Below, piece by piece: positions 11,550-35,902 of a DNA stretch of 35,902 nt; position 1 is the stretch's first letter; every line of letters begins with the position of its first letter. The position numbers were made by a program, and so were the translations under genes. Below the pieces are notes generated by a model. It had not been told where the DNA came from and did no database searches. It was given only the letters and a program-made list of their open reading frames with translations. The stretch is from Okeania sp. SIO3B5 (GTDB lineage Bacteria > Cyanobacteriota > Cyanobacteriia > Cyanobacteriales > Microcoleaceae): assembly GCF_010692555.1 (NCBI RefSeq), contig NZ_JAAHHG010000055.1:1-35902 (forward strand), in the 5' to 3' direction.

Positions 11550-12754
11550 ATGAAAGCGAGATTTAAGTACCGTATATATCCAACACCAGGACAAAAATAC
11601 CAATTAGCAAAGCTATTTGGTTGTGTCCGTGTTGTTTGGAATGATAGTCTAGCTTGGTGCCCGTGAAAAGTATCAATCTGGAGAGAATAAACCTGTTAAC
11701 TCACAGCTACAAAAACAGTTTATTACTCAGGCTAAAAAGATTGAAGACAGAGAATGGCTATCAGAAGTTTCTGCTATACCGTTGCAGCAATCTTTAAACG
11801 ATTTAAACCAGGCGTTGCTCTAACTTTTTTAAATCAACTCAAGGTAAGAGAAAGGGTAAACCTATTAAACCTCCTAAATTTAAAACTAGAAAATCAAGAC
11901 AGACTGCAAGGTTTACAAAGGGTAGATTTAAAGTTGGTCAACATAAGGTGTATTTAGCCAAAATAGGAAAGCTGAAAATTGTGTGGTCAAGGGAACTACC
12001 AGCTATTCCATCATCAGTAACAGTAATCAAAGATTCAGCTCATAGATATTTTCTGAGTTTTGTAGTAGAAATACAACCAGAAACCTTACCTAAAACTGAT
12101 AATTCAGTAGGTATAGATTTAGGAATTAAAACTTTTGCAACTTTGAGTGATGGTCAAAAAATTGATGGGCCCAAACCACTCAAGAAACGAATTAAGAAGT
12201 ACCGAAAACTAAGTAAGTCATTATCTAAAAGAACTAGAGGTTCTAAACAATATGAAAAAGCTAGACTAAAAATAGCTAAGTTCCATGCCAAACTGAAAGA
12301 TACTAGAACAGATTTTTTACATAAATTGTCTACTGAAATAATTCGTGAAAACCAAACAATTGTTTTAGAAGATTTGAATGTTTCAGGAATGGTAAAAAAT
12401 CGGAAATTATCCAGAGCTATATCAGATTTAGGTTGGAAAAAGTTCCGAACACTTTTAGAAGGAAAGGCAGAAAAATACGGTAGAGAATTTAGAGTCATTG
12501 ATAGATGGCAACCTACTTCTCAAGTATGTTCATGTTGTGGTTTTCGTGGAGGCAAATTAGACCTTTCAGTTAGAGAATGGGAATGCCTTAATTGCGGTAG
12601 AAAACATGACCGTGATACGAATGCAGCAATAAACATATTAGTCGCCGGGGGGCACTCGGAGACAAAAAACGGACATGGAGGCAAGCATAAGACTACTGCC
12701 AAAGTAGCAGCAGCCTATGAGATGTCAACTCACCGAGGAGCTACGGCTCGGTAG
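11550..12754 (+). pseudogene. tnpB: tnpB, RNA-guided nuclease gene with two frameshifts
   Basis: Translation starts with MKARFKYRIYPTPGQKYQLA, the classic TnpB N-terminus. It hits TGA at 11664 in the first frame, continues in the next frame from about 11656 (AREKYQSGENKPVNSQLQKQ), stops again at 11821, and resumes in a third frame from about 11819 (NFFKSTQGKRKGKP) to the end. So two small indels, near 11655 and 11819, break the first 90 codons. The remainder is intact: counted from the in-frame ATG at 11948, RuvC-I Asp57 (GIDLGIKTFATL), RuvC-II Glu141 (VLEDLNVSGM), a zinc ribbon (Cys194, Cys197, Cys213, Cys216) and RuvC-III Asp223 (DRDTNAAINIL). A start at 11948 would remove the N-terminal wedge domain, so activity is doubtful unless the indels are sequencing errors. 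Confidence 0.9.
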
Positions 12755-27892: not shown

Positions 27893-27915
27893 ATATTATG
27901 TCCGCTTGAATACTT
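27893..27915. repeat. Degenerate M1 end next to a start codon
   Basis: ATATTATGTCCGCTTGAATACTT is the TTGAA-type M1 terminus with two changes. It begins 3 bases upstream of the DUF4347 gene start and abuts an M5 element; the partner end is missing. Confidence 0.6.
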
Positions 27916-27916
27916 A

Positions 27917-28205
27917 GGGTTTGCGCTCAAAAGTCTTATGGGTGAGGGTAGGAGACAGGAGACAACCCACCCCTCGCCCCTCCCAGGAGGGGAATAGGGA
28001 ATAGGGAATAGTTAAGAGTCAGGAGGAACGGGGAGTTATAGAGAAGGTGATCGTTCATGATAGCAAGAGTGATTTTTCTGCCCCCCTCACCCCAAAATCC
28101 GCTCCTTTATGCAGCTCTTTGAGCTAAAAACCTGGTACAATTTCTAGATCCAAAAAGGCTAAAACCTTTATCTGTAAATGCTTTTAGATTTAATCAGCAA
28201 GCCCT
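27917..28205. mobile_element. M5 MITE-like element, 289 bp
   Basis: Left end GGGTTTGCGCTCAAAAGTCT, then a GGAGACA short array and a CCCCTCGCCCCTCCCAGG tract. The conserved right half CAAAAAGGCTAAAACCTTTA...TTTTAGATTTAATCAGCAAGCCCT follows. The flanks (ACTTA / AATTA) match imperfectly, so the target duplication is unclear. Confidence 0.82.
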
Positions 28206-28220
28206 AATTATTCTTATAAG

Positions 28221-28252
28221 GTGTGTGGGTGAGCGATAGCTAACCCACACCC
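28221..28252. repeat. Short hairpin repeat
   Basis: GTGTGGGT and ACCCACAC pair around GAGCGATAGCTA, between the M5 element and the gene fragment. GGGTGAGCGATAGCTAACCC-type hairpins are recurrent intergenic repeats in cyanobacteria. Confidence 0.55.
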
Positions 28253-28357
28253 TCTAATCGAACTACTGAAGAAACTGCTACAAAGGTCATTCGTGGTGGC
28301 TCCTGGTTCTACAATCCAGGGTGGTGTCGCTCTGCGTACCGCAACAACTGTTTTGCG

Positions 28358-30354
28358 GTATCCACTCAATATGATGGGGTAGGGAATGATTATAACTGCC
28401 AAGGCCAATCAAATGGATTGATAAAATAGGGAGCGATCGTATCGCCTAAATCAATAAGGGTCACCAAAAAAGAATAAAGGATAAAGAATAACAACAGAAG
28501 AACACAGAAGGTTATAGAATATGACACATGAGACAAGCAGGATGACAACCAAAAATTAGTAGAGCAGGTTCTGCAAACGATAGACCCTACCGAAATTGCA
28601 GACAAGTCCTTGTCTCAAAAAGTAGAGAGCCTACTGAACCTGATAGAAAAATTACACGTACAACTCAAAGACCTGCAACAAGAAAATCAACGCTTAAGAG
28701 ACGAAAACAACCGCCTCAAAGGAGAACAAGGTAAGCCAAATATCAAAGCTAAAAAACCAAGAGGGTTCTCAAACAATTACTCATCAGAAAAAGAACGAAA
28801 GCTACCTCAAAACCATTCTAAGGGTAGTAAAAAATCTAGGGTCAAAATAGATAGAGAAGAAATATTAGAGTATCCGATGGAATTACTGCCCATGGATGCA
28901 CAGTTTAAAGGTTACGAAGAAGTAATCATTCAAGACATCACCCTGGGAACTGATAACGTATTATTCCGTAAACAGAAATATTACTCACATTCTAGGGGAA
29001 AAACTTATCTAGCAGAATTACCAGCAGGTTATGAAGGAGAATTTGGTCCGGGAGTTAAAAGCTTAATCATAAGTTTGTACTATGGGGGAAATATGACCCA
29101 AGGCAAACTATTAGAGTTTCTAGAGGACATGGGCATCTTAATCTCAGCCGGGAATTTGTCTAATTTATTAATCAAAAACCAGTCTTTTTTTGAAACAGAA
29201 AAAAGCGAAATTTATGAAGCAGGACTATTAAGTAGTCCCTGGCAGCACTTTGACATGCGCAGGAGCCCGTGTGGGAGGAGTCAACTATACCACGAATGTA
29301 GTGTGTAACCCTCTCTATACGGTCTACTTTACCACTGTCAACAAAGATCGATTAAGTGTACTTCAAGGTTTACTGAACGGAAAAGAACTAGAGTTTATTC
29401 TCAATCCCTTCACCAACTCAATGTTGGAAACCTTACGTGTACCAGATAAATGGAAGAAGTCTCTGGAATTGTTGCCCCAAGAAACTGTATTGAATTCCAC
29501 AGAGTTTAATGGGCTAGTAGATAGACATTTACCATTATTAGGGTCACAAATGCGTAAACGTATTTTAGAAGCAGCAGCAATCGCTTTTTATCATCAGCAA
29601 AGGGACTGGCCAGTCATCAAGACTCTCATAAGTGATGATGCACCGACCTTCAAGTTACTAACTGATGAGTTGGCTTGCAAGTGGATACATGAGGGACGAC
29701 ATTATAAAAAGTTAACTCCCAAGGTTAATTATCATCAAAAACTCCTGGAACAATTCTTGGATGATTTTTGGGATTACTATAGAAAGTTACTTGCTTATAG
29801 AGATGCTCCCACACTTTCAACTGCACAAAGACTACGCTCTGAATTTTCTCGACTTTTCACTACTGAGAGTGGTTATCAACAGTTGGATGAACGAAAACGA
29901 TTAACTGCGAGCAAAATCTCGGAGTTGCTGTTGGTGTTAGAGCATCCGGAATTGCCATTACATAATAACCCGGCGGAGTTAGCTGCTAGGACTATGGTGA
30001 GAAGACGCCATATCAGTTATGGAACTCAGACGATTGAAGGGACTGCATCTTGGGATACTTTTATGTCCCTTGTTGCTACTACTCGTAAGCTGGGATTGAG
30101 TTTTTTTGAATATGTACGTGATCGCATTTCCCAGATAGGTAATATTCCCTCTCTAGCAACTATTATTTACGTTCGCGGAGCGTGGCGTCAGCCGTATCGC
30201 TCTTCTGTTAATTCCTTTGGTTTGTCTTGGCAGAAATAATTGCCTACCCCATCATATTCAGTGGATACGATACGATCGCTCCCTATTTTATCAATCCATT
30301 TAATTGGCCTTGGCAGTTATAATCATTCCCTACCCCATCATATTGAGTGGATAC
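28358..30354 (+). mobile_element. IS66-type insertion sequence, 1997 bp
   Basis: The long terminal inverted repeats begin GTATCCACTCAATATGATGG and stay nearly perfect for about 85 bp (28358-28443 against 30269-30354), ending near a GCGATCGTATCG segment. An exact 8-bp target duplication, GTTTTGCG, lies at 28350-28357 and 30355-30362; 8 bp is the IS66-family size. One transposase gene (TnpC-like, no tnpA/tnpB helpers) fills the element. Because the repeats are clean but the gene is frameshifted, the copy arrived recently relative to the older MITEs or is mobilised in trans. Confidence 0.93.
28521..30239 (+). pseudogene. IS66-family transposase (TnpC-like) with frameshifts
   Basis: The main frames are 28610-29308 (an N-terminal coiled coil, LHVQLKDLQQENQRLRDENN, then a zinc-finger-like/DUF region) and 29250-30239 (DDE core with SDDAPTFKLL, WIHEGRHYKKL, FWDYYRKLLAYRD and the C-terminal LHNNPAELAARTMVRRR). 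They overlap, and the protein jumps frame near 29252, in the conserved WQHFD(D)T segment, so a base or codon is lost at the first catalytic Asp region. A second indel is likely at the start: ATG 28542 runs into TAG after MTTKN, and adding one T restores LVEQVLQTIDPTEIADKSLS into the 28610 frame. Without it the first part would need the TTG at 28610. Probably inactive. Confidence 0.85.
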
Positions 30355-30428
30355 GTTTTGCGGATGGCTCGAACGGCCCTTTTGGCTTTCGTGTATTACG
30401 TATCTCCGTTCTTAGAAACCTACGATAA

Positions 30429-30679
30429 TCTATATAAATCTATGATTATCTGTTCTATTCTTGCTTCTACCTGGCAACGTCGGCGCCTGTCCAGTCCACA
30501 AGCTGACACGGTCGAACTGACCGCCTGAGCTAGATTTAAACTAGCATTCAAATCTCGTTCGCGCTAGCGTTGCGGAGCAATCGCAACTGAAACCCCCAGA
30601 ACTCTTGAAAGAAAATAGAATTTATGATACTCGTCCAAATAATGCTAGGAACAAACTTAACATTCATCGGTGCGTGTGA
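30429..30679. other. Intergenic, no gene seen
   Basis: It contains a short palindromic patch (CGTTCGCGCTAGCGTTGCGGAGCAATCGC at 30556-30584, shown here only for location) of the cyanobacterial GCTAGCG/GCGGAGC repeat type. The frames that run through it from the SUMF1 fragment are not supported as genes. Confidence 0.4.
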
Positions 30680-30766
30680 CGGAGAGGGGGGGATTCGAAC
30701 CCCCGTATAAGTCACCCCATAACAGCATTTCCAGTGCTGCGCCTTAAACCACTCGGCCACCTCTCC
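30680..30766 (-). tRNA. tRNA-Ser (anticodon GGA)
   Basis: 87 nt on the minus strand. The acceptor GGAGAGG/CCTCTCC has discriminator G. The D arm holds CCGAGTGGTTTAAGG, the anticodon stem AGCA/TGCT holds the loop CTGGAAA (anticodon GGA), a long class II variable arm TGGGGTGACTTATACGGG follows, and the T loop has GGTTCGAATCC. CCA is not encoded. It is a different serine isoacceptor from the gene at 24352. Confidence 0.96.
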
Positions 30767-31016
30767 AAAAAGCAAAAATATTAAATTTTATATTTGCTCA
30801 CAATTATACTATTGTAGCAGAATAATTCTAAATTTTGCAAGTCTTTCTGGCAAAAAAATTTTATATTGGATCTTGGGCCTAGTTTACTAAGTCATAAGTC
30901 AGAACTCAGAAGTCAGAAGTTATTTTTGTAACAGGGATTTGAGATCCGCTCCAAAAATATTTCGCCTTAAAAGGCAGGGTTTTAGACCCAATTATTTTGA
31001 TAACATAAGATTAAGC

Positions 31017-31062
31017 TTGACATCCTCCCGACGCTGCTATACGCGAGACAGCGCGGGATTCC
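31017..31062 (-). mobile_element. IS605-type right-end relic (omegaRNA-scaffold-like)
   Basis: Read on the minus strand: GGAATCCCG, a stem CGCTG...CAGCG, then GGGAGGATGTCAAG. This is the same right-end design as 12754-12790. No tnpB or tnpA remains; the upstream side is replaced by unrelated sequence and an M5 element. Confidence 0.65.
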
Positions 31063-31110
31063 CTAGCATCGCTGTTAGGGGCTTTCTGTTTCAATGCACC
31101 CGCATAAACG

Positions 31111-31353
31111 AGATTTACTCTCTTCGGGTCTTACAGGTGAGGGTAGGAGTCAGGAGCCAGGAGTCAGGAGTCAGGAGGAATGGGGAATGAGCGAGGAGGC
31201 AGGAGAGAGAATTATCCCAAGATTGTTCTACGATAGTTAACCCAAAATCCTAACTTTTTGAGTTCCCTAGAACGATAACCTTGCACTTTTTCAAGGTCCC
31301 AAAAGGCTAAAACCTTTATATATCAATACTTTTAGATTTCATCAGCAAACCCT
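31111..31353. mobile_element. M5 MITE-like element with diverged left end
   Basis: The right two thirds match the family closely (GGTGAGGGTAGGAG array, CCCAAAATCCTAACTTTTTGAG, AAAGGCTAAAACCTTTATATA, ATCAGCAAACCCT). The left end has drifted to AGATTTACTCTCTTCGGGTC. The right flank is AATTA. It lies 60 bp upstream of the ferredoxin gene and likely forms part of its leader. Confidence 0.78.
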
Positions 31354-31412
31354 AATTAAAATTTAATACCTCAATAACTAATAATAACTATAAATTATAA
31401 TCTCAAATTATT

Positions 31413-31781
31413 ATGGCCCGTCATCACCAAATTCGCATACACGATCGCCAAAAAGATACATATCATACAGTCCAGGTTCCTGAAGACCGCTACATCCTCC
31501 ACAGTGCCGAAAATCAAGGAGTAGATTTACCATTTTCCTGCCGTAATGGTGCTTGTACTACTTGTGCAGTGAGAGTTATATCTGGCCAACTATATCAACC
31601 AGAAGCAATGGGACTATCATTAGAACTGCAAAAACAGGGTTATGCTCTTCTGTGTGTCAGCTATGCTCGTTCTGACCTATTTGTAGAGACACAAGATGAA
31701 GATGAAGTATACGAACTCCAATTTGGTCGCTATTTTGGCAAAGGAAAGGTAAAAGCGGGATTGCCATTGGATGAAGACTAA
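31413..31781 (+). CDS. Plant-type [2Fe-2S] ferredoxin
   Basis: 122 aa. The cluster ligands are Cys43, Cys48, Cys51 (FSCRNGACTTCAVR) and Cys81 (ALLCVSYARSD). The protein is about 20 residues longer than photosynthetic PetF, through a longer N-terminal strand region and a charged, glycine-containing tail (GRYFGKGKVKAGLPLDED). It is thus more like the accessory or FdxC/petF-like ferredoxins that feed specific enzymes. The electron donor and acceptor are unknown. Its last 11 bases overlap the start of the thermonuclease-family gene, so the two are translationally coupled, an odd pairing with no obvious metabolic link. Confidence 0.92.
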   Translation: MARHHQIRIHDRQKDTYHTVQVPEDRYILHSAENQGVDLPFSCRNGACTTCAVRVISGQLYQPEAMGLSLELQKQGYALLCVSYARSDLFVETQDEDEVYELQFGRYFGKGKVKAGLPLDED

Positions 31782-32292
31782 AATCATTTATCTACTTATA
31801 GTCTGGATATTTTTCACTGGTTGCCAAAACTCAAATCCCCGCTCGGGCAAAATAATTAGAGTAGAAAGGGTAGTTACTGGACAAACTATCGAGATAACTG
31901 ACCGTTCTGCTGCTGTACCCATACTAGAACCCATTCGCTTGATAGGTATTCAGGCACCGGATACCAGACAAAAACCTTGGGGACAAGAAGCTAGAACCCA
32001 ACTAGAAAAGTTAACCTTGGGGCAAGAAGTTTTATTAGAGTTTGATGTCCAGAAAAAAGATAAATTCGACCGCCAACTAGCTTATATTTGGCTGAATGGG
32101 AAACTAATTAATGAATATATGGCAGAAGAAGGTTTGGCCTTGGCAGAGCCATATTTTCCTAACAATAAATATACAGAACGTCTTGCTAATGCCCAAGAAA
32201 AAGCTAGACTGATGGGGCGAGGTATCTGGAATCCAGAACGCCCAATGCGTCAAACTCCAGCACAATTTCGTCGTGAAAATCTTAAACAGTAG
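31771..32292 (+). CDS. Thermonuclease (SNase-like) lipoprotein
   Basis: 173 aa. A short N-terminal hydrophobic segment ending in a lipobox (IFFTGC, Cys18) marks an exported, lipid-anchored protein. The staphylococcal-nuclease-like domain follows: KIIRVERVVTGQTIEI, RLIGIQAPDT (Arg56), GQEAR, DKFDRQLAYIWLNGKLINEY (Arg101) and EARLMGRGIW-type ending. The catalytic residues are mostly present, though the Asp/Glu pattern after APD differs from S. aureus, so nuclease activity is probable but unproved. The ATG lies inside the ferredoxin gene (11-bp overlap). The 3' end is partly duplicated downstream. Confidence 0.9.
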   Translation: MKTKIIYLLIVWIFFTGCQNSNPRSGKIIRVERVVTGQTIEITDRSAAVPILEPIRLIGIQAPDTRQKPWGQEARTQLEKLTLGQEVLLEFDVQKKDKFDRQLAYIWLNGKLINEYMAEEGLALAEPYFPNNKYTERLANAQEKARLMGRGIWNPERPMRQTPAQFRRENLKQ

Positions 32293-32386
32293 AAAGTCAA
32301 AAGTCATGCATTCAAAAGTAATTCGTTGTGAAAATCTTAAACAATAGAATTAAGCAACTCAAAAGTCATGCATTCAAAAGTCAAAA
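32268..32386 (+). repeat. Partial duplication of a gene 3' end
   Basis: GTGAAAATCTTAAACAGTAGAA...AAAAGTCATGCATTCAAAAGT (32273-32320) recurs as GTGAAAATCTTAAACAATAGAA...AAAAGTCATGCATTCAAAAGT (32327-32377). The second copy has one substitution and a small insertion. The duplicated part includes the last codons and stop of the SNase-like gene. It is flanked by AGTCAAA heptamers, a likely slippage substrate. Confidence 0.8.
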
Positions 32387-32423
32387 GTAAGAAGTTATTG
32401 TTGTTATCAAAATAATGTGGATC

Positions 32424-32690
32424 TAAAACCCCCCCTTTTCAGGCTATGCTTTATCAGCAAAATTCTTTACAAAATTGGATAATGCCTATTATCAAAAGCT
32501 TACGAGCATTTTGTTGGTTTTATAAGCTTTGACAAATTGACTAACTTGTGTGTTCCTAAAAGTTATTTTTTGTCGTTGCGATCGCAACGACACTAGGAGC
32601 TTTCAGGATGTAATACATCAAATGATATTTTTGTCAAGTTTTATGTTAAGAAAGATGTTTATAAAGCATAGCTTTTAAGGCAGGGTTTCC
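32424..32690. repeat. Possible inverted-repeat-bounded segment
   Basis: GGCTATGCTTTAT (32441-32452 core) and its inverse ATAAAGCATAGC (32661-32672) are perfect over 12 bp. They are embedded in longer, weaker inverted ends (ACCCCCCCTTTTCAG / CTTTTAAGGCAGGGTTT). A perfect 20-bp palindrome lies in the middle. It is MITE-like, but without a readable target duplication. It fills most of the gap before the inositol-monophosphatase-family gene; no gene was seen in it. Confidence 0.45.
32572..32591. repeat. 20-bp perfect palindrome centred on HIP1
   Basis: GTCGTTGCGATCGCAACGAC is fully self-complementary, with the HIP1 octamer GCGATCGC at its centre. HIP1 sites are usually single octamers; extension to 20 bp is unusual and could form a small cruciform. 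Confidence 0.9.
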
Positions 32691-32718
32691 TATTAATTAA
32701 TTAAGTTAATTATTTTTT

Positions 32719-33546
32719 ATGAGTGCAGAACAATTACAAGTTTTCTTAGATATTGCTACTGAAGCTGCTCTTGCTGGTGGTGCAGAGTTGATGTCTTATT
32801 GGGGCAATCTTCAAGATATTCAAGAAAAGGGCAGTCCAGGAAATTTGGTAACTGAAGCTGACAAAGCTGCGGAAAAGGCGATCATCAAGGTTTTACAGCG
32901 ACATCTACCAGACCATGGCATTCTAGCTGAAGAGTCGGGAGAGTTGGGAGATACAACAAGTAGATATCTATGGGCAATAGATCCTTTGGATGGTACTACT
33001 AATTTTGCCCACCAATATCCTTTTTCAGCATCCTCGGTAGGATTATTAATTGATGGGGTACCACAGGTGGGGGTGGTATTTAATCCGATTTTGGATGAAC
33101 TGTTTCGTGCAGCTAAGGGTTTGGGGGCAACTCGTAACCGTAAACCAATTAGTGTTTCTCAGACTACTACGTTAGAAAGAAGTTTGACAATAACGGGTTT
33201 TGCTTACGATAGACGGGAGACTACTGACAATAACTACAAAGAATTTTGTCAAATATGTTATCTCACTCAAGGGGTACGACGTTCTGGTTGTGCTTCTATG
33301 GATCTATGTTCTATTGCTTGTGGTCGTGCAGATGGTTACTGGGAAAGAGGTTTGTCGCCTTGGGATATTGCTGCAGGTATAGTAGTGTTGGAGGAAGCGG
33401 GAGGTAAAGTTACGGCTTATAATGGTAGTCCTTTTGATATGAGTTCGGGTAAGATTTTAGCTACTAATGGCAAAATTCACGATTTAATGAGCAAAGCTTT
33501 GATTGAAACTCCGCTTTTGTCTCATTGGTCTACGGTTAGAATTTAG
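32719..33546 (+). CDS. Inositol-monophosphatase-family phosphatase
   Basis: 275 aa. Metal-binding and catalytic motifs of the family are present: the early EAALAGG and VTEADKAAE, EE at 71-72 (LAEESGE), DPLDGTTN at 88-95, and WDIAAG at 215-220 followed by VLEEAGG. It hydrolyses a phosphate monoester with Mg2+. Cyanobacterial members act on inositol phosphate, histidinol phosphate or fructose-1,6-/sedoheptulose phosphates, and the sequence alone does not decide. Length is normal. The ATG is preceded by an AT-rich leader without a clear ribosome site. The 3' end runs straight into an ATTTAGA array and an M4 repeat. Other genes in the region show no functional link. Confidence 0.92.
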   Translation: MSAEQLQVFLDIATEAALAGGAELMSYWGNLQDIQEKGSPGNLVTEADKAAEKAIIKVLQRHLPDHGILAEESGELGDTTSRYLWAIDPLDGTTNFAHQYPFSASSVGLLIDGVPQVGVVFNPILDELFRAAKGLGATRNRKPISVSQTTTLERSLTITGFAYDRRETTDNNYKEFCQICYLTQGVRRSGCASMDLCSIACGRADGYWERGLSPWDIAAGIVVLEEAGGKVTAYNGSPFDMSSGKILATNGKIHDLMSKALIETPLLSHWSTVRI

Positions 33547-33566
33547 AATTTAGAATTTAGAATTTA

Positions 33567-33805
33567 GAATTACCTCTTCATTATAAATAGGACTTACGCA
33601 GATACGCTATATATAGCGCTCAAAACTATTGTCCAATAGTACTTGGACTATATAAATAGTGCCTTTGCGTAAGTCCTGATAAATTAAGAGGATTGGATCA
33701 AAGGATTTTTTTTCTTCTATTAGTTGATTGGATATGGCACAGGTTTCTTCCCCATCCCTCAACCACTTTTTTCTCCATGAATGGAGAGGCTTTAAACCTT
33801 AATTA
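33567..33805. repeat. M4 dispersed repeat, interrupted by M3
   Basis: ATTACCTCTTC before the insertion, and TTAAGAGGATTGGATCAAAGGATTTTTTTTC...CTCCATGAATGGAGAGGCTTTAAACC after it, match the copies at 16568, 23010 and 34820. CTCCAT-GA-ATGGAG is an internal hairpin. An (ATTTAGA)x4 array (33536-33570) precedes it. Confidence 0.7.
33588..33678. mobile_element. M3 MITE-like element, 91 bp, 5-bp target duplication
   Basis: Inverted ends AGGACTTACGCA / TGCGTAAGTCCT, flanked by ATAAA at 33583-33587 and 33679-33683. It is inserted in an M4 repeat. The reverse complement differs from the copy at 35056-35146 at only about three positions over 89 bp, so both moved recently. The interior is itself partly palindromic (GCTATATATAGC). 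Confidence 0.92.
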
Positions 33806-33861
33806 TTGGGTAAAGATTTAGTTTAGATTCAATGCAATTTTGTTAAGGAAAAGTTGTTATT

Positions 33862-34782
33862 ATGTCTTTTACATTTAAACAAGGATTATTCCAATTTGAT
33901 TTCACAGATCATCATGCAATTTTAGGGGTTTCTCTAGATGCAGAATTTGGTGAAATTCGTAAACGTTATATGCGAGTGGCGCGTCGTTTACATCCTGATA
34001 CTTCACCCTTTGAAAGTGAAACTGATAAAGAATTTGCTAATCAGTTGTTATCTAAGTTGGTGAGTCCAGCTTATAATAAATTTTCTAAGGAAGGCGACCG
34101 CGCTGAACTGTTTGTGGTTATCAAAAATCTTAGTAATACTGTTAGTCAAAAGTGCAGTCAAATTAAGTTTACTACTGATGCAGCTCAAAAAATTGCTAAG
34201 GCGGGAGATTACCAAAAAGTATATAAGGAAGCTCTCAAGGAATTAAGCGATCGCGAATATGAATCTATTGACAAAACTTTAGATATCATTGGAGAAATTA
34301 GTGAATTGAATTTAGCTTATTTACTGCGCAAAAGTGGTTCTGGAGTTGTTAAACCCGCACCTCCACCTACACCGAAACCTCCTAGTGATTCTGTCAAACC
34401 CACAACTATAAAACCCTCAACTAAAAATCCTTTGGTAGAGCAAGCTTGTAATAGGGCTAAAACATTAATATCTAATAAAAATTATGTTAAGGCAATTTCT
34501 GAGTTAAAAGGAGCTTTGAAATTTGAGCAGAATGATAGTCTTTGTCATGCTTTATTAGGTTTTTGTTACTTCCAGCAAAAGCAACGCAAAATGGCAATAT
34601 ATGAAGTTAAAAGAGCTCTTTCATTAAATCCTCAAGAGCCAAAAGCATTAGAGGTAAAAAAATTATTAGAACAAGGTGCAACTGGCAATAAGAAACCAAG
34701 TAAACCAAAAGATAAAAAAGAAACTAAATCTGATAAAAGCGGTGGTTTATTTGGAGGTTTTTTTGGCGGAAATAAAAAGTAA
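33862..34782 (+). CDS. J-domain protein with C-terminal TPR
   Basis: 306 aa. An N-terminal J-domain (about residues 17-80) has the HPD tripeptide at 44-46 (RRLHPDTSPF), so it can stimulate an Hsp70/DnaK ATPase. The loop after HPD is longer than in DnaJ itself, and no G/F or zinc-finger region follows. A helical middle, a proline-rich linker (about 168-192, KPAPPPTPKPP), two TPR units (about 195-270, ISNKNYVKAISELKGALK) and a Lys/Gly-rich tail ending GGLFGGFFGGNKK follow. It is a likely specialised co-chaperone; the client is unknown. The start lies after an AAGGAAAAG box. It is a single gene between two M4 repeats. Confidence 0.9.
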   Translation: MSFTFKQGLFQFDFTDHHAILGVSLDAEFGEIRKRYMRVARRLHPDTSPFESETDKEFANQLLSKLVSPAYNKFSKEGDRAELFVVIKNLSNTVSQKCSQIKFTTDAAQKIAKAGDYQKVYKEALKELSDREYESIDKTLDIIGEISELNLAYLLRKSGSGVVKPAPPPTPKPPSDSVKPTTIKPSTKNPLVEQACNRAKTLISNKNYVKAISELKGALKFEQNDSLCHALLGFCYFQQKQRKMAIYEVKRALSLNPQEPKALEVKKLLEQGATGNKKPSKPKDKKETKSDKSGGLFGGFFGGNKK

Positions 34783-35048
34783 TTCAAGAATTTAGAATTT
34801 AGAATTTAGAATTTAGAATTACCTCTTTTTATAAATAATTAGGATTGGTTAAAACTGGAGTTTAGACTAAATTTTGGGGTCTTCAGATAATTTGCTCAGA
34901 AGCAATGAATACTTGAAACTCATAACCCTTGGAAAATATAAAGGGTGCAGATGTTTTCAATGCTCTTGATTATTTTTCTTTTTTGGCGAGGCAAGGGTGA
35001 AGCTGACATTATTCAAACTATTCAAAAAGTCTTTCCAGGGCACAATTA

Positions 35049-35275
35049 ATATCATCAGGACTTACGCAAAGGCACTATTTATAGAGTGCAAGTACTATTG
35101 GACAACAGTTTTGAGCGCTATATATAGCGTATCTGCGTAAGTCCTAATCATGTTCGGTTGAATACTTATAATATCTGCGGACCGAAGGCAGCTATGCTGA
35201 GGGCAGAAGGCAGAAGGGAAAGAGCAAGGTTAGAAGGCAGAAGGTTTTTTATAACTGATTATCCGAACATGATAT
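35049..35275. mobile_element. M1 variant element (TTCGG ends), split by M3, inside M8
   Basis: Removing the M3 insertion restores the left terminus ATATCATGTTCGG, the exact inverse of the right terminus CCGAACATGATAT; the element is then 131 bp. The core holds a GGCAGAAGG-type array. TTTTTTATAACTGATTATCC precedes the right end. Confidence 0.9.
35056..35146. mobile_element. M3 MITE-like element, 91 bp, 5-bp target duplication
   Basis: Ends AGGACTTACGCA / TGCGTAAGTCCT, flanked by ATCAT at 35051-35055 and 35147-35151, inserted in the left terminus of an M1 element. It is inverted relative to the copy at 33588-33678. Confidence 0.92.
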
Positions 35276-35399
35276 AACCTATAGCACCCTAGTGGATAAT
35301 TGACTGAAAAGTCTTTGCAATGCTGATTTAGAAATAGTCTCAGTCTTGTTGGCCTATCTCACTATTCTCCCTCGGCAAGTTTCTGGCCTGCCTTAATTA

Positions 35400-35634
35400 T
35401 GGTTTGCTGAAAAAGTCTTTTAGTAGGGGTAGGAGACAGGAGACAGGAGACAGGAGAAATTGGAATTATAGAGGAGGTAGGAGCTAAGTTTTGTAAGAAT
35501 GATTTTTCTGCCATAATCGTCCCAAAATACTAGCTTTTTGAGCGTTTTAGACTGAAACAGGCACACTTTTTCAAGGCCCCAAAAAGGCACTTGTCTTTAT
35601 ATATCAATGCTTTTAGATTTATTCAGCAAGCTCT
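35400..35634. mobile_element. M5 MITE-like element, 235 bp, 5-bp target duplication
   Basis: Left end TGGTTTGCTGAAAAAGTCTT, (GGAGACA)x3 array at about 35430-35456, the conserved CCAAAAAGGC and CTTTATATATCAATGCTTTTAG blocks, right end ATTCAGCAAGCTCT. AATTA lies at 35395-35399 and 35635-35639. It is inserted just inside the right terminus of the M8 element. Confidence 0.9.
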
Positions 35635-35771
35635 AATTAGTCTAAACTCCAGTTAAAAGGATTTTTTTTCTTTTTTCTCCATGAATGGAGAGGCTTTATA
35701 CCTGAATTTTTCGGTAAGTTTTAGTATTATAGCGCTACGCATTAAGGTGTTTGACATTTCTAAACCCTGTT

Positions 35772-35899
35772 ATATCATGTCCGGTTGAATAATTAGACAA
35801 TGGTTGTCCGAAGGCAGGAGGCAGGAGGCAGGAGGCAGAAGGTTTTCTTTCATTGTCACCTTAATTTTATACACGCTCCGATGCTACCGGACATGATAT
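35772..35899. mobile_element. M1 MITE-like element, 128 bp (type C right end)
   Basis: Perfect M1 termini. The left inner end is the TTGAATAATTAG type. The right inner end is the inverse of the special type seen at 8348 (CGGAGCGTGTATAAAAT). The core has a (GGCAGGA)x3 array. Confidence 0.88.
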
Positions 35900-35902
35900 T
35901 AG

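Follow-up and report, generated by a model that had tools for sequence, protein, structure and literature searches.

Short tandem heptamers have long been known in the Cyanobacteria, where STRR sequences and small dispersed repeats are familiar. MITEs are known there as well: those of prokaryotes, including the cyanobacterial Nezha, have been reviewed (PMC10969869), and the properties described in the accessible part of that review, namely short length, lack of coding capacity, terminal inverted repeats, target duplications, many copies and ends shared with insertion sequences (IS), are also found in the nest of repeats considered here, from Okeania sp. SIO3B5. We regard this nest as a good, if ordinary, example of something already known, MITEs nested in one another in the genome of a repeat-rich filamentous cyanobacterium. 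The term "nested" is absent from the accessible text of the same review, and none of the literature matches listed dealt with nested MITEs of Okeania, in a search that left most subscription journals outside.

The window (the whole stretch of DNA analysed) is the full 35,902 bases of contig C501, in a genome of 11.06 Mb assembled in 789 contigs. The nest is found in the last 1.1 kb of the contig, immediately 3' of a gene for a DnaJ/TPR protein (Table 1). Seven relatives of this gene were found, the five closest all from Okeania (73–92% identity) and the remaining two at 42–44%. Beyond the nest site, relatives have what reads from its sequence as a putative hisS-like gene; the window contig stops before this position is reached. 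The ORFs in 34817–35715 are all shorter than 80 aa, and an Rfam scan of 27900–35902 up to E 0.1 returned a tRNA and a plastid 3'UTR model on the strand opposite it, so a coding or RNA role for the nest was rejected. A MIR7994 match on the palindrome of M3 (28.8 bits against a gathering threshold of 100, E 0.026) was set aside as a chance hairpin likeness. No sign of a function for the nest other than intergenic bulk was found.

Table 1. Features of the nest and its immediate surroundings, in window positions.
Feature	Position	Strand	Remarks
Second M4 copy	33534..33815	+	3' of inositol monophosphatase gene; without M8; own M3 inside
M3 in second M4	33589-33677 (plus G at 33678)		ATAAAT on either side
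DnaJ/TPR protein gene	33862-34782		immediately 5' of nest
M4 left part	34783..34854	+	starts directly after DnaJ/TPR stop codon; first TTAAAA (34849-34854) at its end
AGAATTT heptamer array in M4 left part	34787-34820
M8	34855..35652	+	798 bp including inserts; ends CTGGAGTTTAGACTAA / TTAGTCTAAACTCCAG
TAA target duplication of M1	35047..35049		copy on the left of M1; that on the right is 35275-35277
M1 outer left terminus TATCAT	35050..35055	+	severed by M3; last five bases are the left M3 duplication
M3	35056..35146	+	91 bp; ends CAGGACTTACGC / GCGTAAGTCCTA; ATCAT at 35051-35055 and 35147-35151
M1 remainder, up to CATGATA	35147..35274	+	short GGCAGAA heptamer run and CTATGCTG interruption
AATT duplication of M5	35395-35398 and 35635-35638		right copy overlaps inner end of M8
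M5	35399..35634	+	236 bp; ends ATGGTTTGCTGAA / TTCAGCAAGCTCT
AGGAGAC heptamers in M5	35431-35457
M4 right part	35653..35717	+	second TTAAAA (35653-35658) at its start
M9 (TAGCGCTACG..), left part	35730..35772	+	adjoins nest; split by second M1
Second M1, inside M9	35773..35898	+	TTA at 35770-35772 and 35899-35901; last base of contig is 35902

Other traces of mobile elements are found elsewhere in the window. Between 28300 and 30420, a match to the IS66 family, below the cut-off, covers 29250–30239 and lies between long inverted ends, with about 8–9 bp (GTTTTGCGG) found on both sides of the insert. The ORF preceding the match (28610–29308) has no match itself, and the insert appears, by reading, to split a gene for an RGGSWF..CRSAYR-type domain. 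A TnpB fragment of 268 aa (an IS200/IS605-type RNA-guided endonuclease) is located at 11948–12754.

The first-pass annotation of this region had described repeats interrupted one by another, and its main features were confirmed in the sequence, coordinates included: M4 is split by a 798-bp M8 with perfect 16-bp ends (18 bp if the AA/TT of the duplication is counted) and TTAAAA on both sides, and within M8 an M1 is split by the 91-bp M3, with ATCAT duplicated in the M1 terminus. It had also proposed target duplications at three levels; these are present, but the TAA pair at M1 has to be added to them, so that all four insertions have one. M4, which it treated as a nested element in its own right, is indeed split by M8, but has neither terminal inverted repeats nor a clear duplication (30 loci, by eye), and so may not have arrived by transposition. 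M1, M3, M5 and M8 all have both.

Exact duplications were counted among copies in the fetched loci and compared with 500 random pairings of left and right flanks, the ends being paired at 60–300 bp for M1, 60–140 bp for M3 and 150–330 bp for M5, limits that longer copies would escape. Three-base duplications flank 52 of 61 M1 copies, against a shuffled mean of 21.6 and maximum of 31 (49 of 58 on a smaller locus set), and all are of the form TNA (TTA 24, TAA 21, TGA 5, TCA 2). For M3 the duplicated length is five bases, in 13 of 19 copies (shuffled mean 1.0, maximum 6); none of the 19 is duplicated in a 4-bp frame. M5 had been assigned a duplicated AATTA, and this sequence does flank it, but the exact duplication measures four bases (AATT here), a length found in 33 of 37 copies (shuffled mean 20.7, maximum 26). 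The duplicated bases are AATT in 26 copies, and since a T precedes and an A follows in 32 of 33, giving the context T-ANNT-A, a six-base TANNTA reading is equally possible. Two-ended copies of M8 other than that in the nest, mostly 316–338 bp long, carry duplications of 6–8 bp (for example GCACTA, TTATTGA, TTGCTA, TTAAGA, TTACTA, GAGATG, GTAGAA, TAAGTTTA and TTAATTA), less constant in length than those of M1, M3 and M5. Copy C529 is an exception, with a duplication of 7 bp if its outer end is used and 3 bp with a second, inner end.

Unoccupied versions were found for each host, as expected from the nested insertion first proposed. Five Okeania orthologues of the nest site were fetched (L107, L108, L109, L110 and L111). 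Both of those having M4 here, L108 (Okeania SIO2B3) and L110 (SIO1I7), have it uninterrupted by M8 and with one TTAAAA, reading ..GGATTGGTTAAAAGGATTTTTT..; in the other three, M4 is absent directly after the DnaJ/TPR gene. The M4 copy upstream of that gene is also present in L108 and L110, without M3. Fourteen other copies of M8 were examined, four from the same genome (C332, C178, C529 and C1) and ten from relatives (L226, L227, L228, L229, L231, L232, L236, L240, L245 and L250), a count taken from the matches listed, with two short M8-like matches (G002:C35 and G002:C16) outside it. M1 is missing from the nest position in all 14, and M5 in all 11 that have a right end (C1, L226 and L250 have no recognisable one, and L231 is without the left). 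One copy (L227) has a different insert further along. The window M8, with its inserts removed, can be aligned with the other copies. For M1, the two closest siblings (C368 and C84) are 99.2% identical over 127 bp, with intact ends, TAA duplications and no M3.

Two further observations concern these orthologues. In Okeania hirsuta (L107:4034–4225) the same intergenic region holds a reversed and diverged M4 (70–74%), displaced downstream by about 110 bp. The neighbouring stack has a distribution of its own: M9, whole and undisturbed in L110 and absent from L108, is common to the window and L110, whereas an internal deletion in the nest M4 (comparison of 35653–35772) is common to the window and L108. 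These are conflicting histories, perhaps reflecting recurrent deletion between T-runs.

Ends in common with transposase-bearing elements were found for M3, M5 and M8. An element of 1976 bp (C498) has the exact 16-bp ends of M8 within 79-bp inverted repeats, is flanked by duplicated TATCAA, and encodes a frameshifted NF041680-family transposase; NF041680 elements in two relatives, G004 (TTACTAA duplicated) and G003 (TTATAA), also have M8 ends, one side with one mismatch. Eight NF041680 pieces were found in the Okeania sp. SIO3B5 genome, all below the cut-off, and the only uninterrupted frame above it is in G001 (L172), with ends that match those of M8 in 12 of 16 bases. The likeness of M8 to these NF041680 or IS701-IS4-like IS lies in the 16-bp ends and the 6–7-bp duplications, while the sequence common to M8 and the C498 element is confined to the terminal 16–18 bp. 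In its duplications of 6–8 bp and its C-----YT end, M8 is nearer to IS1634 (5–6 bp in the accessible part of PMC2266710), but no match to an IS1634 model was found at E 0.001. Four tandem units repeating every 179 bp, all bearing an M8-like end (CTAGAGTTTAGACTAA), were also seen in the SIO3B5 genome, at L094 (G000:C138:8549–9101).

For M3, its ends, AGGACTTACGC, flank two elements (1.43 and 1.15 kb) that carry pieces of the IS701-family transposase NF049921. Two separate pieces match at E 2.5e-24 and 1.4e-10, both far below the whole-protein cut-off because they are broken. No clear duplication was found at these two decayed elements; M3 duplicates 5 bp, in contrast to the 4 bp given for IS701 in the accessible text of PMC2266710. 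M5 ends are present on both sides of two of seven PF05598 loci (in G002 and G004), with AATT or ACTT duplicated, and on one side of a locus in the SIO3B5 genome itself. NF033578 (IS5 family) was recognised on all five pieces tested, which come from the two M5-ended loci and the one-sided locus; being broken, all score below the whole-protein cut-off. M5 thus shares with the IS5 family ends that bound NF033578 pieces.

No such element was found for M1 in the fetched loci; its ends number 568 and 592 in the SIO3B5 genome at two mismatches or fewer. A TNA duplication is known for IS1031/ISL2-type IS5 elements, and from this rule the helper of M1 is probably an IS5-like transposase. The 3-bp duplication agrees with the IS5 family, but no autonomous partner was found among M1 end pairs 600–2600 bp apart in the fetched loci, and no transposase between M1 ends around the fetched PF01609, PF13359 and PF05598 loci. 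One candidate from the end-pair scan (L143) held a sugar-epimerase-like gene, and another end pair with three mismatches (L255) was rejected. Stop codons interrupt 11 of 15 PF01609 and 9 of 13 PF13359 matches in the SIO3B5 genome. Intact multi-copy elements may drop out of an assembly in 789 contigs.

Taken as a whole, the explanation that we hold with high confidence is that the stack would have been built by successive cut-and-insert events between the DnaJ/TPR and hisS-like genes. M4 would have been there first, and M8 would have entered it through a 6-bp staggered cut; M1 (by a 3-bp TNA cut) and M5 (by a 4-bp ANNT cut) would then have inserted into M8, and M3 (by a 5-bp cut) into the M1 terminus, disabling M1. 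Each family would have been moved in trans by the DDE transposase of an IS with the same ends, of NF041680 type for M8, IS701-like for M3, from the IS5 family for M5 and probably IS5-like for M1, with staggered cutting, insertion and repair leaving duplications of 3 to 8 bp. Whether any of these families still moves is doubtful to judge from the sequences, since the NF041680, IS701-like and IS5-like copies seen in the SIO3B5 genome are broken.

The order M4, M8, M1 and M5, M3, as proposed at the outset, is mostly right. M3 must have come after M1, since it breaks the terminal repeat of M1 six bases in from the end, and M1 and M5 necessarily entered after M8 existed; the nesting sets no order between these two, nor does it force their entry after M8 had landed in M4. 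The idea that the stack might serve as a "usable clock" was too strong. Compared with its nearest sampled sibling, M1 is 99.2% identical, M8 about 96–97%, M5 95% over the whole length (97% over 200 bp in C363) and M3, of which few copies were sampled, 93.5–94.9%. This is not the nesting order: M3, necessarily younger than its host M1, is the most diverged. The sampled copies are part of each family, the ends of M3 alone numbering 265 per strand. With sibling identity out of step with nesting, the stack gives a relative order but no dates, and dating by divergence is ruled out.

For the lowest level there is another account. M4 is a dispersed intergenic repeat and may not be a transposon. It could be old intergenic DNA that is not mobile, having multiplied by duplication or recombination and disappeared from some relatives, with transposition restricted to the upper levels; we would put this somewhat short of an even chance. 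The lack of terminal inverted repeats and clear duplications in 30 loci speaks for such an origin, and there is no orientation bias to neighbouring genes, as the gene upstream shares the strand of M4 in 13 of 24 loci and that downstream in 15 of 25 (counts on which M4 was also rejected as a gene-end element). Its presence is moreover unrelated to gene similarity, the closest orthologue, L107, being without M4 at the nest site. Against this, M4 has at least 46 matches in the SIO3B5 genome (the best 40 of 930 first-look candidates scored), and it is present or absent at orthologous sites, with the reversed copy elsewhere in the L107 intergenic region.

Higher up, the question is whether M8 was filled where it now lies. 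It might have been loaded with M1, M5 and perhaps M3 elsewhere and then have jumped into M4 as a unit, the M4–M8 insertion being the latest event. Nesting as such is compatible with this, and a loaded M8 could be mobile, since its 16-bp ends are still perfect. However, M1 is at the nest position in none of the 14 other M8 copies examined, in this genome and four others of the same genus, and M5 in none of the 11 with a right end; no second joined block was among the matches listed for the whole nest as query (the best 40 of 2241 first-look places scored); and when the whole genome was scanned for M8 ends, no further pair was spaced at about 800 bp. As the assembly is in 789 contigs, a second loaded M8 could be hidden, but we consider this history improbable. 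It is scarcely credible that the nest is an assembly chimera of misjoined repeats, which its closeness to a contig end in so divided an assembly might suggest: the two halves of M4 correspond to one and the same M4 at the orthologous site in relatives, both with TTAAAA, and each insert has its own duplication. Insertion in place, rather than transfer of a loaded M8, is what we infer.

Seven-base arrays add a further kind of repetition. Arrays with different units occur in M4, M5 and, as a short run, M1 of the nest. Exact lag-7 runs of at least 14 were found in 16 of 58 M1 copies, 15 of 32 M5 copies, six of 13 copies of a family with ends TTAGACATCTCC and none of 19 M3 copies. Lags of 4–6 and 10–12 gave no runs, lag 8 gave four in M1 and one in M5, and lag 9 gave one in the TTAGACATCTCC-ended family; in the window as a whole there are 15 lag-7 arrays of at least 14 and five lag-8 ones, the remaining lags tried giving no such array. 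Some of the M1 arrays (35199–35244 and fetched copies) are broken by pieces of 28 bp (ACCCACCCCTAACCCCTCCCAGGAGGGG) or 8–9 bp (CTATGCTG, CGGGAGCTG). The arrays are not restricted to MITEs, since several in the window lie, by eye, outside recognisable elements. They might form an independent module, open to exchange, that has spread into several unrelated Okeania MITE families, a suggestion that we think unlikely; if it were true, the nest would gain a fifth and sixth level beneath the MITEs. No paper on the small dispersed repeats of cyanobacteria was among the matches listed.

The nest leaves knowledge of how such elements work unchanged. What it provides is a clean stratigraphic record of non-autonomous families within a single intergenic region, for which sister species supply natural empty sites, with three of the four inserts tied to proposed types of IS helper, and it makes Okeania tractable for dating MITE bursts by orthologous presence or absence and not by divergence alone. 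Set beside the MITEs in the accessible text of the review (PMC10969869), the Okeania nest differs in having several families stacked together, with an unoccupied version known for every host level. BrickBuilt of Porphyromonas gingivalis, as described in the accessible part of its source (PMC4596501), is similar in that a tandem repeat lies inside a MITE, but it is a single family with a 23-bp unit, whereas the Okeania units are of 7 bp and are found in several unrelated families.
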